A DNA stretch of 20,482 nt, from the NCBI GenBank assembly GCA_027356675.1, contig DAHVXO010000304.1:1-20482 (forward strand), given 5' to 3'. The DNA comes from Symbiobacteriaceae bacterium (GTDB lineage Bacteria > Bacillota_E > Symbiobacteriia > Symbiobacteriales > Symbiobacteriaceae). Within the stretch, counting starts at the first letter, position 1, and each line of letters opens with the position of its first letter. Of the stretch, positions 7,082 through 17,672 are shown piece by piece. The translations under genes and the position numbers were made by a program. Below the pieces are notes generated by a model. That model had not been told where the DNA came from, made no database searches, and saw only the letters and a program-made list of their open reading frames with translations.

Positions 7082-7232
7082 GTGATCTTTTTTGTTTTCC
7101 CTTCGAACATTTCAGGTGTGATGTACGTATGAGGGAGTGAGGGCGATCTGAAAAAAGGAGAACAGCGTCACGGGCGGAACCAAGCAAAGGGGGAAGGGCT
7201 AAAGTCACCCCGAGCACATGGGCGGCCTCCGG

Positions 7233-12476: not shown

Positions 12477-12692
12477 CTACAACGGTCGGCGGGCGGGGAC
12501 CATGGTCTTTTCAGCCTGGACCTCCCCGGGCGGCTCAGGCTGGCTCTCCCAGTCCATATAGGGATCGCCGGGGAAGGCGGGGCGGTCACGGTGCCAATCC
12601 GGGGGCACCATCTGCCGGAGGGTGAGGGGTGCAGGCGGGAGCGAACCCTTCTGTTCACGCCACTGCGGAACCGACACATCGTTCTGTGTCAT
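12477..12692 (-). CDS. Small proline-rich protein, function unknown
   Basis: A 71-residue protein rich in Pro, Trp and acidic residues (RQMVPPDWHRDRPAFPGDPY, then MDWESQPEPPGEV). I do not recognise it, and it looks unstructured. Three things support it as a gene: a perfect AGGAGGTG site before ATG 12692, a good intrinsic terminator just past its stop, and the lack of a better frame on either strand. Its start overlaps (ATGA) the stop of an upstream open frame that has no start codon. Given the nearby spore genes, a late-sporulation role is possible but not shown. A longer start at 12701 has worse spacing. Confidence 0.65.
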   Translation of the reverse strand: MTQNDVSVPQWREQKGSLPPAPLTLRQMVPPDWHRDRPAFPGDPYMDWESQPEPPGEVQAEKTMVPARRPL

Positions 12693-13144
12693 CTGGCACA
12701 CCTCCTGTACAGGATTTGAGACCCGGACGTGAGGGTGGGGGACACGATTGGTGATGCGAGAATTCCAACCTCAATGCTAGCACCGTTGGCCTTCGCCGTG
12801 AAGAGCTTGCGTGGAAAATAGGATGCACGCTCGCTGCGCACTACATACGGAGCCGCCAGGCCAAGTGGGAAGAAGCCAGCGCCATCGGGAACGTTTGGTG
12901 GGTCGCTTGCATGCTTGAGGCCCGGCGCAGCGGCCGGGCCTCATCTACTGTGTAGGGATCAGATGCCGCCGAAACCGAACGCTCCAACGCCCAAAGCGGG
13001 GTTGTAGGCCGCGATGCCCGGGAGACCCGCCGTTGTCGGCAACGCCGAGGGTACTGTGGCCACCGTTGTGACGGGCACGGCGTACTCATACACACGATAT
13101 ACAGTAGCGTTGGCAGCGGGGACAAAGTGACCATCCGAGGAACC
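12689..13144 (-). pseudogene. Decayed or unrecognised - strand frame with two internal stops
   Basis: One - strand frame is open from just after TAG 13145-13147 to TGA at 12689, broken only by two stops at 12959-12961 and 12941-12943. The first part reads protein-like (FVPAANATVYRVYEYAVPV, ending NPALGVGAFGFGGI). The second also does (VPDGAGFFPLGLAAPYVVRS, ending SGSQILYRRCAR). Neither part has an ATG or a ribosome binding site. GTG 13093 is the only early start option for the first part. The final TGA overlaps the ATG of the Pro-rich gene, as in an operon. A hairpin (12917-12942) lies 16 bases after the first stop. This looks like an eroded gene or gene pair, but chance openness at high GC is not excluded. 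Confidence 0.35.
12917..12942. terminator. GC-rich hairpin, terminator-like
   Basis: GAGGCCCGGC (12917-12926) pairs perfectly with GCCGGGCCTC (12933-12942) around GCAGCG. No T-tract follows on either strand. It lies 16 bases past the first stop of the - strand frame ending at 12959. Confidence 0.45.
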
Positions 13145-13224
13145 CTAGAGTGGTAATGGTTTGCGGGCAGTCGGTAGACGCGGCCTGAGGCCTAAAGGGG
13201 TGGGCCGCTGCCCTCGGCTTCAGG

Positions 13225-13264
13225 TATACTGCGGTCACTTTGCATAATCAACTCAGATTATGCA
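13225..13264. other. Candidate left attachment site of the recombinase element
   Basis: Positions 13225-13243 match 14993-15011 at 16 of 19 bases in direct orientation, including CTGCGGT, the central CT (13238-13239) and TTT. The right arm runs into an AT-rich perfect inverted repeat, TGCATAATC (13241-13249) with GATTATGCA (13256-13264). That repeat could be a second recombinase-binding motif or a terminator past the recombinase stop. The assignment as an att site is inference from position and shared core. Confidence 0.5.
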
Positions 13265-13316
13265 GTGCGCTACCTCTGGGCGCGGCATTCCATTTTCGTA
13301 GGAAAACACCGAGCGA

Positions 13317-14972
13317 TTACTCGGCCTTGAGCCTGTCCGTCCGCCATCTGATCGCCAGAGCTTTCGACCGCTGACGCCCCGGCGACGGATCCTCGGAGAT
13401 CGTGACCTTGTCGATCCACTGGTGGAAAAGCTTTCGCAGCGCCAGGGTGTCATCGAGTTGGACGAGCAGTCCATGCTCCAGCACATCCTTGATGTCGCGC
13501 TGAAGCTGCACGAGATCATCGTGGTCAGACCCAGTGCGCATCAGATCCTTCTGCAGCCTGGTCCGTTCGGCTTCGAGTTGGCGCACCTGCTGCTCCATCT
13601 GCTGGGTGACAACTCGCCGCACGGATTCGCTGAAATCCTCTGCAGCAAGCACAAACTGTGCGATTTTGTTGGCTGCCTGCTGGATCTCTGAATCAAGATT
13701 CGCCAGACGGCGCTCCAGACGGTGCACAGGGTTGTCCGACAGCCGGAAGTAATCCCAGAACTCACTGTCGTGCCGGATGGCCTCGAATTGCTCCTCAAGC
13801 TTCAAGAGGATCGTCTCGTGGAGCACATCCGCGCGGACATTCTGCTGATTACAGACGGCCAGGCCTTTGCGGAGTTTCGTGGCGCAGGTGTAATACTGAT
13901 ACCCCCGCTCGGGGTTGCGGCCGTGGTGGATCATGGGTCCGCCGCAATGGCCGCAGACCATGATCCCGGTGAGCGGGTAGCGGGCATTCGGGGGCTTGCG
14001 CTGTTTCAATCCCTCCGTCGCCCGGCTGCGCCGGTGGGCTTGCACACGCTCAAAGAGCTCCCGGGAAACGATGGGCTCGTGGGCGTCCTCCACGATGATG
14101 GCCTCCTGTTCGGGGATGAGCTCCAGCCGCCGGCGTTTCTTCCCAAACAGGTAGCCCCCAGAGCGTGAGTGCTCCAACTCCCGGGAGTACTTGTAGTTGT
14201 GCACACCGGCGATGAGGTCTCCCACATAAGCCCGGCGCGAGAGGATCCGCTGAATCAGCGTGACAGTCCAGATTCGCGGGTCCGCCTTCGCCCATTTGCG
14301 CCTCTCGTTGAAATGGTGAGCGATCCATGCGGCGCCCTTTCCCTGGCCCGCAAGCTCAAAGATGTCCACAACGACCGGCCGCAGCTGTGGCATGGGTTCG
14401 AGTTTCTTGCGCTGTGGGTTGTACTGAAAACCATACGGCGGGATTCCGCCCTTCCACTGGCCCTTCTTGGCCTTTTCGCGCATGCCGATCTTGACGGCGA
14501 TCGATTTCTTGTCGGACTCCATGCGTGCGAGAAACGAATGCACGTGGAAGAGGGCCAGGGCACCCCCCTTGTCGCGGGAGTCAAAGCCCTCTTCCAGGGA
14601 CTTGACCCGGACACCCTTGCCGTCCAACCATTCCAGGAACATCTTGGCCTCAGATTCGTCGCGGTTAAACCGCGATAGCCCCTTGATGAAGAGGCACCGG
14701 ACTTCACCGTGCTCCACGGCGTGAATGAACTGTTTCATCGCCGGTCGTTCGAGGAGTGACACCTTGTAGCCCGAGACCCCGTCGTCCCGGAAGATATGCT
14801 GTTGTCGGATTACGAACTGCTCGCCAGATTCGGCTCCTGACAGTTTTTTTGCCCATTCCGTCAGCGCCTGAATCTGGTGGTCCACCGTGTCTCCTTGGCG
14901 GTCAGTGGAAGCGCGGGCCACGATTGCAGCCGGAACGACAGCCAGGGCCGGGTCAACCTTGAGCGTCGCCAT
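13317..14972 (-). CDS. Large serine recombinase (site-specific integrase/excisionase)
   Basis: DNA recombinase that cuts and rejoins att sites through a phosphoserine link. Its 551 residues show the resolvase domain with nucleophile Ser22 (AAIVARASTDRQGD) and the catalytic Arg motif LSRFNRDE, then the recombinase domain (GGIPPYGFQYNPQRKKLEP onward). A zinc ribbon follows (CGHCGGPM and the later CATKLRKGLAVC pair), and then a long coiled coil near residues 400-480. This order is that of phage integrases and of sporulation recombinases such as SpoIVCA. ATG 14972 is chosen over 14993 because GGGGAGG precedes it. Candidate att sites lie on both sides, and the gene reads as intact. Confidence 0.96.
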   Translation of the reverse strand: MATLKVDPALAVVPAAIVARASTDRQGDTVDHQIQALTEWAKKLSGAESGEQFVIRQQHIFRDDGVSGYKVSLLERPAMKQFIHAVEHGEVRCLFIKGLSRFNRDESEAKMFLEWLDGKGVRVKSLEEGFDSRDKGGALALFHVHSFLARMESDKKSIAVKIGMREKAKKGQWKGGIPPYGFQYNPQRKKLEPMPQLRPVVVDIFELAGQGKGAAWIAHHFNERRKWAKADPRIWTVTLIQRILSRRAYVGDLIAGVHNYKYSRELEHSRSGGYLFGKKRRRLELIPEQEAIIVEDAHEPIVSRELFERVQAHRRSRATEGLKQRKPPNARYPLTGIMVCGHCGGPMIHHGRNPERGYQYYTCATKLRKGLAVCNQQNVRADVLHETILLKLEEQFEAIRHDSEFWDYFRLSDNPVHRLERRLANLDSEIQQAANKIAQFVLAAEDFSESVRRVVTQQMEQQVRQLEAERTRLQKDLMRTGSDHDDLVQLQRDIKDVLEHGLLVQLDDTLALRKLFHQWIDKVTISEDPSPGRQRSKALAIRWRTDRLKAE

Positions 14973-14989
14973 CGCTGAGCCTCCCCGAG

Positions 14990-15023
14990 ACATATCCTGC
15001 GGTAACTTTACCGCAGGATATGT
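14990..15023. repeat. Perfect 16-bp-arm palindrome with CT spacer; candidate right attachment site or operator
   Basis: ACATATCCTGCGGTAA (14990-15005), spacer CT (15006-15007), then TTACCGCAGGATATGT (15008-15023), every base paired. It begins 18 bases before the recombinase start codon, between promoter region and ribosome binding site. Serine-recombinase att sites are typically inverted repeats around a non-palindromic dinucleotide, which this matches. It could equally act as the operator or leader hairpin that controls recombinase expression. Its left half and centre recur at 13225-13243. Confidence 0.7.
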
Positions 15024-15336
15024 GGGGCGTCAATCCAACACATAGACATTACGGCATTTGTGCCGTTTACTGTAAGATCGAAACCCTGACGGCCTATCTG
15101 GGCGCAGGTGACCCGGGACGGGAGCCAGACCGGCGCTTCGGAGCGGTCCAGGAGGGGCTACAGCACGTTCAGAGACCCTCGCGTGACATGGGCCGGCAAG
15201 GCCCTGCTGTGTGCCCGTGAACACCCTTCAGGCCGAGCAGGCGAGCAGGCAAGATAAAAGCGGCCACCCGGCCGCTGCAACGTCAAGTGGCCCAAGGCAT
15301 TGAGTGGCTGGCCAGGTGCATCTCGGGCATCCGGGA

Positions 15337-15730
15337 CACACTTTCCCCTTCACGGTGCGCAGAGATAAAGCACGGTGTCGTCGAGCCTGTCTTGCTTGTG
15401 ACAGTAAGCCTGATGACGGTGTCAGACCCCACCGGGCAGGGTGTAGCCGTGCCACAAACCCTTGTGGGACATGGCCCCGCTACGGTGTCACCAGCCTCAG
15501 AGGGCGAAGGCACGGAACCGCGTTTCTCGGCACGGAAGCGTGCACGCAGGATAGAAGCGGCCACCCGCTGACCCCAAACCGTTGTAGCATAAGGCGTTGA
15601 GTGGGTGGCCAGACTTTTCGGTCGGCCACCCAAAGTCCACAAAGCGTTCTCCCCCAAAGGTCGAAGTGGGTGGCCGGGTACTTCCCGGACATTCGGCACA
15701 CTTTCCCCTTCACGGTGCGCAGAGATAAAG
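15337..15730. repeat. Diverged direct repeat, 34-base identical cores 360 bases apart
   Basis: Bases 15337-15370 and 15697-15730 are identical (CACACTTTCC... to ...AGAGATAAAG). Similarity continues at lower identity on the lower-coordinate side. Motifs GTGGNTGGCC, AAGGCRTTGAGTGG and GATARAAGCGGCCACCC appear in the same order in both copies (about 15246-15336 and 15550-15696). The second copy carries an extra segment of about 60 bases. The 360-base offset is a multiple of three. No product is known. Confidence 0.75.
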
Positions 15731-15860
15731 AGAGTGGGCCGACATGCCTCGACCGATTGCAGCTCAAGTGCGCAGCCGTGGGACTGGCGAATCATCTGCA
15801 CCCACAATCGTGGGCCGATGGCGTCGCGCGTCTTGTCGGACAAGGCTTCCAGCATGGGTA

Positions 15861-16005
15861 CAGGACCGGCCGGGCTGGTTGATGAGTGTAACCGGGGTGC
15901 CCGCCCTGTCAAGCCCTGGCCGCTCTGCGGCCACGGCGCAGCCGCAAGGGGCTTGACAGGGACGGCGCGCCCCGGTGGACCATCTCTCAAGCCCGGCTGG
16001 TCCTG
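15861..16005. repeat. Long two-tier inverted repeat (possible structured RNA or element end)
   Basis: The outer stem, 15861-15876 with 15990-16005, is 16 bp with one G-U pair. After an internal loop the inner stem, 15891-15916 with 15949-15976, is 26 bp with one G-U pair and two single-base bulges on the 3' side. The apical part holds another perfect 7-bp hairpin (TGGCCGC-TCT-GCGGCCA). No T-tract follows. It is far longer than a terminator and would be extremely stable as RNA or as a DNA cruciform. I recognise no named RNA family in it. Confidence 0.7.
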
Positions 16006-16197
16006 TGTGGGAGGCAACACACGCCCGTCATCCGTTGCGGTGCAGCGGAATAGACCGGAGCATGGGGCGGAAAGCAGATGCTCCCGGGTGAAATACCGTT
16101 TGACCGTTGAGAGACTCGCCAACTTTCGATACCGTAAGGGTGTCGATCCAGTGCGCCAACCTCCACCGGGTCACCCAAAGGGAGAGGAGGATACCAG

Positions 16198-16365
16198 TTG
16201 GATGGTCAGCGGAGACGGCGGCTCACCGAGTTGCAGGAGATGTTTCACATCACTGAGGAACACGGTTCGGAGCCGACCTGGGCCGTTTTGTCGGAGACCC
16301 TTGCTGACTATCTCAACCGGAAGTATTGCCGCCAAGTGGTCGTGGCCCGGGAACGAAAGCGGTAA
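16198..16365 (+). CDS. Small basic protein of unknown function
   Basis: A 55-residue protein starting at TTG 16198, supported by a strong GGGAGAGGAGG site and an intrinsic terminator 46 bases past its stop. It begins with an Arg cluster (MDGQRRRRLTELQEM), has a central TWAVLSETLADYLNRKY helix and ends in a basic tail (VVVARERKR). It is small, basic and probably helical, which would suit a nucleic-acid or membrane-surface adaptor, but I recognise no family. It is the first convincing gene after the recombinase on this side and lies downstream of the long hairpin region, which could be its leader. Confidence 0.6.
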   Translation: MDGQRRRRLTELQEMFHITEEHGSEPTWAVLSETLADYLNRKYCRQVVVARERKR

Positions 16366-16410
16366 ACGCTTGGTCCACATCCGGGCGTTGGGCTCGACAA
16401 TCGAATCAAG

Positions 16411-16435
16411 ATACCCCTGCATCTGGCAGGGGTAT
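16411..16435. terminator. Intrinsic terminator between two convergent small genes
   Basis: ATACCCCTGC (16411-16420) pairs perfectly with GCAGGGGTAT (16426-16435) around ATCTG, followed by TTCTGT on the + strand. It lies 46 bases after the 55-residue gene and 59 bases past the stop of the facing 49-residue gene. Confidence 0.8.
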
Positions 16436-16493
16436 TTCTGTCAAGACCGGCTCTGGAGCTTTCCTTGAGCACGGAACCATTGGTAACTTTGAG

Positions 16494-16643
16494 TTACAGT
16501 GGGGTACTCGTCACTTTAGGTACAGTCGCCTTGGCAGCGGGGTAAGCGGCAGTTCCCGGGCCTATGAACAGGTCGCTGACCCCGGCCTGTGCTCCAATGA
16601 ACGGCGAGGCGGCTGGCATCGCTGCCCCGAATCCGTAAAACAT
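16494..16643 (-). CDS. Small Ala/Pro-rich protein, possible spore-associated
   Basis: A 49-residue protein. It starts MFYGFGAAMPAASPFIGAQA and ends with TAAYPAAKATVPKVTSTPL. ATG 16643 has an excellent GGAGGTG site with an 8-base spacer. Low charge, Ala/Gly/Pro richness and aromatic residues at the N-terminus are reminiscent of small spore coat or structural peptides, but no family is recognised. The C-terminal PAAxATV motif recurs in the decayed frame near 13100, where the DNA is also similar. It is transcribed away from the LysR gene, with the starts 132 bases apart, and a CATACCCT box 24 bases upstream of its ATG resembles a mother-cell -10 element. Confidence 0.6.
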   Translation of the reverse strand: MFYGFGAAMPAASPFIGAQAGVSDLFIGPGTAAYPAAKATVPKVTSTPL

Positions 16644-16691
16644 GGGGATACACCTCCGCCGTCAGGGTATGCACGATGGCGCGGATTCGCC

Positions 16692-16720
16692 TTCACAACA
16701 GGCCAATGGCGGTCTATAAT
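16692..16720 (+). promoter_or_regulatory. Sigma-A promoter of the LysR gene
   Basis: TTCACA (16692-16697), a 17-base spacer and a perfect TATAAT (16715-16720) lie 55 bases upstream of the start codon. Only one base deviates from consensus. Confidence 0.85.
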
Positions 16721-16775
16721 GAATACGCCCACATTGAATCGTTCCCATTCCCATGGGGAATTGAGGAGGGTGCCT

Positions 16776-17672
16776 GTGCTCCTGCAGCATTTGATCACGT
16801 TCTGTCGGGTAGTGAACGAAGGTTCTTTCACACGGGCGGCCCAGGCCCTCAATCTGACCCAGCCTTCTGTGACCAAACAGGTCGGTGCACTTGAGGACCA
16901 TCTGCAGATTCAACTGTTCACGCGCACCGGAAAGCAGGTCCACCTGACGCCAGCCGGCGACTTGGTGTATGTCTATGCCCGTCAGATCTCCCATCTGGTG
17001 GGTCAGTGCGAAAATGCCGTACACGAACTGCGCTCGCCCGGCAGCGGTCACGTCACCGTGGGCTGCGTTCATACGATTGGGCTCTTCACCTTGCCAGATT
17101 TGCTGGCGGAGTACGCCCGCGAGCACCCGTTGGTGAAGCTCAACGTCAAGACTGGCAACAATCTGGAGACCGTGACGATGCTCCTGCACGGGGAGGTGGA
17201 CCTGGGTCTGATCACAACCCCGCACCTCGACGAACGGCTGGAGGTCCATCCCCTGTTCGAGGACCCACTGCTGGTGGTGGCTAGCCCCGAGTATGCGGCC
17301 AACCTGCCCGAGGCCGTGTCGCTGCCGGCGCTCTCACGCCTGCCGATGATCGCCTACGTCCGGGGGGCGCGATTCCGGATCACCACCGACCAGCTCCTGG
17401 AGCAGGTCGGCATCAGTCCGAATGTCGTCATGGAATTCGACAATCACGATGCGATCAAGACGATGGTGCGCCTGGGCTTCGGTGTGGCGCTGGAACCGGC
17501 GAGCGCTGTGGCCAAGGATGTGGAGGCGGGCACTCTGGTCTCCCTGAACGTCCCCGGCCTGCCGGACAGCAGCCGGACCACGGCGCTAATCCTCCGCCGG
17601 GATGAGCGGCGACCACCTGCTGTGGAGTCATTCGTGGGTCTGCTGGGACGTCGCTTCAAGGCCGGTCGTTAG
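16776..17672 (+). CDS. LysR-family transcriptional regulator
   Basis: DNA-binding regulator of about 298 residues. The N-terminal winged helix-turn-helix is clear (FCRVVNEGSFTRAAQALNL, then TQPSVTKQVGALEDHLQIQL), followed by the FTRTGKQVHLTPAG wing and a linker helix. A periplasmic-binding-protein-like effector domain follows, with the usual GHVTVGCVHTIG, HGEVDLGLIT and LGFGVALEP strands. The frame is open far upstream to 16326, but that part overlaps a promoter and an opposite-strand gene. GTG 16776, five bases after GAGGAGGG, gives the normal LysR N-terminus. The divergent 49-residue gene is the nearest possible target. The effector is unknown, and the gene ends in a hairpin with its stop in the loop. 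Confidence 0.94.
   Translation: MLLQHLITFCRVVNEGSFTRAAQALNLTQPSVTKQVGALEDHLQIQLFTRTGKQVHLTPAGDLVYVYARQISHLVGQCENAVHELRSPGSGHVTVGCVHTIGLFTLPDLLAEYAREHPLVKLNVKTGNNLETVTMLLHGEVDLGLITTPHLDERLEVHPLFEDPLLVVASPEYAANLPEAVSLPALSRLPMIAYVRGARFRITTDQLLEQVGISPNVVMEFDNHDAIKTMVRLGFGVALEPASAVAKDVEAGTLVSLNVPGLPDSSRTTALILRRDERRPPAVESFVGLLGRRFKAGR

Follow-up and report, generated by a model that had tools for sequence, protein, structure and literature searches.

The 20,482-nucleotide stretch of Symbiobacteriaceae DNA analysed here (the window) carries an insertion of 3.4 kb that divides a small protein-coding gene. Judged from sequence comparison, we hold it almost certain that the insertion, its ends and the split gene are as described below. 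The inserted DNA is quite likely a stand-alone attL-int-(rdf)-attR unit within a sporulation gene, a tiny counterpart of skin or gin.

Ends of the insertion and the divided gene

In a 398-genome sample of the phylum, the genome nearest to the window by its Rny sequence was G350 (80% identity; other listed genomes 62–71%). The PHP-domain neighbour of the element was present in 5/5 family genomes of G350, with 70–78% identity. One of these five, G519, contains a related locus without the insertion, L107, and the empty site rests on this one genome; at the orthologous place in the other four the small gene was absent. Two adjoining stretches of L107 were found 3.4 kb apart in the window, positions 12990–13121 aligning to L107 8628–8757 and positions 16522–16779 to L107 8737–9000. 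The overlap of the two alignments corresponds to a 22-bp direct repeat with 20/22 identical bases, which no other stretch of the window, on either strand, matched at more than 15/22. The 3399-bp insert itself gave a single 40-bp match across the five family genomes. At the insertion place L107 has an intact minus-strand gene of 79 aa (8861–8622). The corresponding features of the window are:

13122..16520, no strand: inserted DNA of 3399 bp, a 3421-bp unit including one repeat copy (L107 alignment)
13100..13121, no strand: attL core, the left of the two 22-bp repeat copies, lying in the gene's 3' part; marks the left boundary of the insertion in the comparison with L107
16521..16542, no strand: attR core, the right of the two 22-bp repeat copies, lying in the gene's 5' part
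16497..16643, minus strand: 5' part of the split gene, ATG at 16643, 49 codons, its frame reaching a stop shortly inside the element
12959..13121, minus strand: 3' part of the split gene, beginning PAANATVYRVYEYAVPV, separated from the gene's start

By tblastn, the 5' part was 73% identical to the L107 small protein over residues 5–45 and the 3' part 87% over residues 36–79. Both repeat copies lie in the same reading phase, and their join gives a frame of 87 codons with no stop that resembles the intact gene of L107. An earlier note on this DNA had placed the element's ends elsewhere and stated that joining the outer flanks does not obviously rebuild a gene; joining at the 22-bp repeat does rebuild one, in frame. 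Between the window and L107, pN was 0.15 in the first part (36 codons) and 0.06 in the last (42 codons), with synonymous change saturated. The low pN against this saturation points to selection on the small gene over the divergence of the two loci, most of which conservation may predate the insertion. Another sample yielded P0194, a 49-aa truncated first half that is 98% identical to the window's 5' part. The left repeat copy and L107 share AAC, but the right copy reads AAG, and this difference fits an attP origin of the left half of the right copy; P0194 carries the AAC residue.

Two further observations concern the DNA beside the element. At 12719–12990 the window is without about 3.6 kb that 5/5 family genomes have between the PHP/coiled-coil genes and a LysR gene. 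In L107, L108 and L110 the ORFs of this stretch resemble, by eye, an operon of MoxR ATPase, DUF58 and a third gene, and the other two family loci align to these three over it. At 12477–12701 lies a small minus-strand ORF without a Pfam match, in a region partly conserved in relatives.

The recombinase, its sites and the rest of the element

The following features lie within the insertion:

13317..14972, minus strand: large serine recombinase, 551 aa, with Resolvase, Recombinase and Zn ribbon domains and long helices
13225..13243, plus strand: left site of the earlier note, with GGTCACTTT; possible recombinase-binding motif within the element
14990..15023, no strand: perfect 34-bp palindrome with GGTAACTTT; putative operator of the recombinase gene
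15005..15033, minus strand: sigma-A-like promoter of the recombinase, TTGACG-17-TAAAGT, overlapping the palindrome; 9/12 consensus bases
16198..16365, plus strand: 55-codon ORF with TTG start; candidate recombination directionality factor by size and ribosome site
16510..16517, no strand: right inner arm GTCACTTT of an attP-like inverted repeat
13124..13131, no strand: left inner arm AAAGTGAC of the same repeat
16482..16490, plus strand: another GGTAACTTT motif, close to the element's right end

The earlier note had taken the gene between its two sites for a large serine recombinase, and this assignment is borne out by Pfam matches above cut-off to Resolvase, Recombinase and Zn_ribbon_recom (PF00239, PF07508 and PF13408), together with a match to the PHROG 95 integrase at 4e-93. 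The best start is the ATG at 14972, preceded by GGGGAGG, and we take the serine in ARASTDRQ to be the catalytic residue. The structural model (pLDDT 71, pTM 0.36) has long helices at residues 415–446 and 449–500. The SPbeta integrase was the best PDB match by both sequence and fold, with TM-scores that are low, 0.2–0.3, for a low-confidence multidomain model.

Relatives of the recombinase were sought among proteins by scoring the best 7999 candidates by shared words. One was near-identical (P0001) and ten were 50–71% identical, after which identity dropped to 30%. Genome contigs gave three distant loci (23–27%) and viral contigs one (27%), and the best matches in plasmids and phages reached 31% and 29%, respectively. 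Among the 154 genomes of the class of G350, 84 matched the recombinase alignment, the best at 141 bits, much less than a close member would score; in the 398-genome phylum sample the best match was 153 bits.

The repeats described in the earlier note are present as reported. Positions 13225–13243 and 14993–15011 are identical at 16/19 bases with a spacing of 1768 bp, and 14990–15005/15008–15023 are perfectly inverted 16-bp arms separated by 2 nt. First-order Markov shuffles of the window reached 16/19 for the 19-mer at 14993 in 0/1000 runs, and for 19-mers taken anywhere in the 34-bp palindrome in 7/1000, so the match is above chance. The proposal that these two sites bound the element is contradicted by the empty site: since L107 aligns up to 13121 and resumes at 16522, the outer flanks 13122–13224 and 15012–16520 lie inside the insertion, and both sites are internal to it. 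An empty junction with the outer halves of these sites joined was sought in the five orthologous family loci and matched at 22/38 bases at best. What survives of the recombinase-only element proposed there is that it is integrated, nearly cargo-free and may be excised, perhaps during sporulation; its boundaries at 13225 and 15023 are wrong.

The palindrome is probably an operator of the recombinase gene, which is likelier than an att site because it overlaps the sigma-A-like promoter, spanning the -10 and 13 of the 17 spacer bases. By itself the promoter match is weak, with three such sites in the region against 1.2 in shuffles.

Joining the inner ends of the insertion gives GTCACTTT-27-AAAGTGAC, a near-symmetric 8-bp inverted repeat of a kind that occurred within 15 bp at 164/200000 random junctions. 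The centre of this repeat is one base, whereas the attP of a large serine recombinase is an imperfect inverted repeat around a central dinucleotide, and the longer symmetry at that centre (11/22) was no better than at the other centres tried (best 10/18; 18–25 positions). The motif GGTNACTTT was found at five places in the window, four of them in the element (13132 on the minus strand, 13233, 15001 and 16482) and the fifth at 7209, a clustering with P of about 0.003 for a motif chosen after the fact. The two sites of the earlier note have this motif in common with the true ends and may bind the recombinase. Exact matches of TATNCTGCGGTNACTTT occurred in 46 viral-contig stretches and were judged, by estimate, to be at chance level for 15 fixed bases.

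Among insert ORFs of at least 35 codons, only the recombinase gene and the 55-codon ORF have a strong ribosome site. The GC content of the latter by codon position (0.64/0.42/0.73) follows the pattern seen in the PHP gene and miaB. Searches with it gave no family match and no PDB match, and a relationship to Spo0E was considered and dropped, there being no Pfam match. From its size and ribosome site, our guess is that it encodes a directionality factor.

The insert also contains degenerate direct repeats at 15170–15740, including an exact 34-nt pair (15337 and 15697), and nested strong inverted repeats at 15860–16006 (15860/15990 and 15894/15949) that could form a long stem-loop; the window had no Rfam match. 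A similar direct-repeat motif lies between two other serine recombinases on contig C585 of G519 (L143, 2145–2182). There, positions 1–4278 of L143 hold two tandem large serine recombinase genes, one running off the contig, which adjoin two ORFs without an identified family; no convincing small-gene match was found on this contig.

The small-gene family, its promoter pattern and a recurrent split codon

The small protein had no protein family match. It has 131 homologues, of which 120 were listed, and statements on homologues cover those 120. Within the class of G350, 10/154 genomes carry 23 small-gene matches. Nearly full-length matches make up 20 of the 23, at 1–3 per genome; the other three are weak and partial, two being other glycine-rich ORFs and one overlapping another match. 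SpoIVA was found in all ten carrier genomes, but its presence does not single them out, because 137/154 genomes of the class have it.

Upstream of the small gene, the promoter pattern AC-N15-18-CATANNNT was found in 14/23 distinct regions, whereas 1000 shuffled runs averaged 0.2 and never exceeded 3. The 23 regions comprise 22 from loci (one duplicate dropped) and the window, the latter without the pattern; start codons were picked by script, and that of L118 is probably wrong. The same pattern precedes dpaA in 4/4 full-length family loci, a fifth, truncated dpaA locus being left out. In B. subtilis dpaA is a sigma-K gene, and we take the pattern, as known from that species, to be of sigma-K type. 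YabG, sought as a second sigma-K control, was not found in 5/5 family genomes. A stricter form, TCACC-N15-17-CATANNNTG, occurred at seven places in G350 against none for the reversed control, and two of the seven are its two small genes. At the other five, Pfam showed no known spore family among four first-ORF proteins (the 85-aa ORF of L136 was left out and one protein was cut at 160 residues); two of the four matched Pfam, as a UDP-sugar dehydrogenase and an M23 peptidase. The pattern suggests mother-cell, sigma-K-like promoters for the small-gene family, and the split gene is probably spore-related and may be a late mother-cell gene. Inside the element the sigma-K-like pattern had no occurrence. 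The window's own copy retains one half of it:

16664..16671, minus strand: -10-like CATACCCT of the split gene, located at -28; the window copy has no AC where the -35 usually lies

Despite this -10-like sequence, the split gene of the window may be poorly expressed, because the -35 AC is absent.

Among the 120 listed homologues, three are without the N-terminal half (P0191, P0192 and P0193). In each, an unrelated leader runs into (P)AANATVYRV, which is the codon split in the window, and the 3' half stays intact. For two of the three, the longest contig has the same length as that of a recombinase relative: 17770 bp for P0191 and recombinase P0011, and 362102 bp for P0192 and recombinase P0007. 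The chance of two such coincidences is about 0.0015 (10% jitter of lengths). Because the longest contigs are equally long, each recombinase would be located together with its truncated homologue. Hence two diverged recombinases, about 61% and 51% identical to that of the window, are very probably located at this very codon in members of the small-gene family. The contig of P0193 is 1330 bp, too short to show a recombinase. GTCACTTT could be encoded by the leader of P0191 at -11 nt from the split codon and by that of P0193 at -12 nt, close to its place in the window (-11); the background for such compatibility is 1% of peptides. The leader of P0192 is not compatible with this arm.

Proposed function, competing explanations and known elements

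The 3.4-kb element would consist of attL, a large serine recombinase, a possible directionality-factor ORF and attR, with little else. Recombination with a target that is largely copied in its own attP may have placed it in the small, presumably late-sporulation gene, at a fixed codon within PAANATV. The palindrome operator over the recombinase promoter would perhaps serve autorepression. In the mother cell, the directionality factor would turn the recombinase to excision between the two 22-bp repeats, restoring the small gene there while the spore genome keeps the element. By analogy with known systems and by comparison, such excision in development is likely.

The main rival to this developmental reading is an ordinary integrated or decayed element that landed once and broke a dispensable gene, with no developmental excision and with paralogues doing the work. 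We consider this unlikely, although it deserves real weight: carrier genomes of the class have 1–3 strong copies, so that losing one may cost little, the window's copy has no -35, and no timed promoter was found inside the element. An accidental break sits less well with two halves that are both open and conserved (pN 0.15 and 0.06), though that conservation may be older than the insertion, or with an intact recombinase gene and the cutting of three other homologues at the same codon with intact 3' halves. The in-frame repeat is, moreover, a requirement of a reversible system.

The boundaries drawn in the earlier note would instead give a 1.77-kb element between CT cores at 13238–13239 and 15006–15007, perhaps nested in the larger insertion. 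Such an element would account for the 16/19 direct match, the perfect palindrome and the position of the recombinase between the two sites. We regard it as very improbable, given that its flanks belong to the larger insertion absent from the empty site, that its inner halves joined by eye form no palindrome, that the palindrome overlaps the recombinase promoter and that the shared motif marks the true ends too. Least probable of all, and barely credible, is transposition that duplicated a 22-bp target and had nothing to do with the carried recombinase. The direct repeat at the ends and the internal repeats at 15170–15740 would be in keeping with it, but neither of the insert ORFs with a ribosome site is a transposase, the right copy differs from the left copy and L107 (AAG against AAC) as expected from attP, and a fixed codon was used in the other cases.

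The developmental reading rests in part on likeness to known systems, and the attL-int-rdf-attR plan in a mother-cell gene is common to skin, SPbeta, gin and yin; the 3.4-kb element would follow it too. It differs from all four in size, in having no other evident genes, in host group and in target. Closest in its solved recombinase is SPbeta, which splits the spore-envelope gene spsM in Bacillus subtilis and excises in sporulation (PMC4191935). SprA and the 58-aa SprB suffice for that excision, and such a set is the kind proposed for the 3.4-kb element (PMC4191935). SPbeta is a 134-kb active phage, unlike the 3.4-kb element (PMC6957869); SPmini is a laboratory-minimised, man-made SPbeta (PMC4191935), whereas the 3.4-kb element is natural; excision is demonstrated for the SPbeta system. 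The gin element in gerE of Bacillus cereus ATCC10987 is, like the present one, non-phage, has a serine recombinase and splits a very small gene, the 225-bp mother-cell gene gerE (PMC5595907). It has a 9-bp core repeat, an inverted repeat in the att site and a separate directionality factor, GirX, and differs in its 28.6 kb, 31 genes and three recombinases, in its demonstrated excision and in host class and gene (PMC5595907). The skin elements in sigK of B. subtilis and Clostridium difficile share the large serine recombinase and the reconstitution of a mother-cell gene, but their target is a sigma-factor gene, and the C. difficile element has 19 genes (PMC5025042). In C. difficile the recombinase promoter is sigma-A-dependent and the directionality factor, CD1234, has 72 aa (PMC5025042); the known directionality factors of this kind are small and without shared sequence, as SprB (PMC4191935) and CD1234 (PMC5025042) illustrate. 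In yin, within the sporulation gene yabG of Clostridium botulinum, the recombinase lies downstream of the gene's 5' part in the same orientation, as here, but the element is prophage-like and its host is another (PMC10747680).

'Almost all' known intervening elements are in mother-cell genes (PMC6957869). The sporulation-intervening elements described in these papers are prophage-like or, in one case, a 28.6-kb island. Within the literature covered, which takes in little of the subscription literature, no report of an intervening element in Symbiobacterium was found. The present case also illustrates that repeats beside an integrase need not be its attachment sites even when they share a motif. 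We give even odds to the view that late spore genes of Symbiobacteriia harbour a class of cargo-free selfish attL-int-rdf-attR units, in effect DNA-level introns, that are removed in the doomed mother cell alone, pass on through the spore and recur at one codon of one spore-gene family. A natural 3.4-kb element with one recombinase and no more than one small helper would demonstrate that a bare recombination unit is able to persist within a spore gene, which the SPmini experiment only implied; it would also supply a small integrase whose att sites are defined, and the choice of late mother-cell genes by such elements would become testable.
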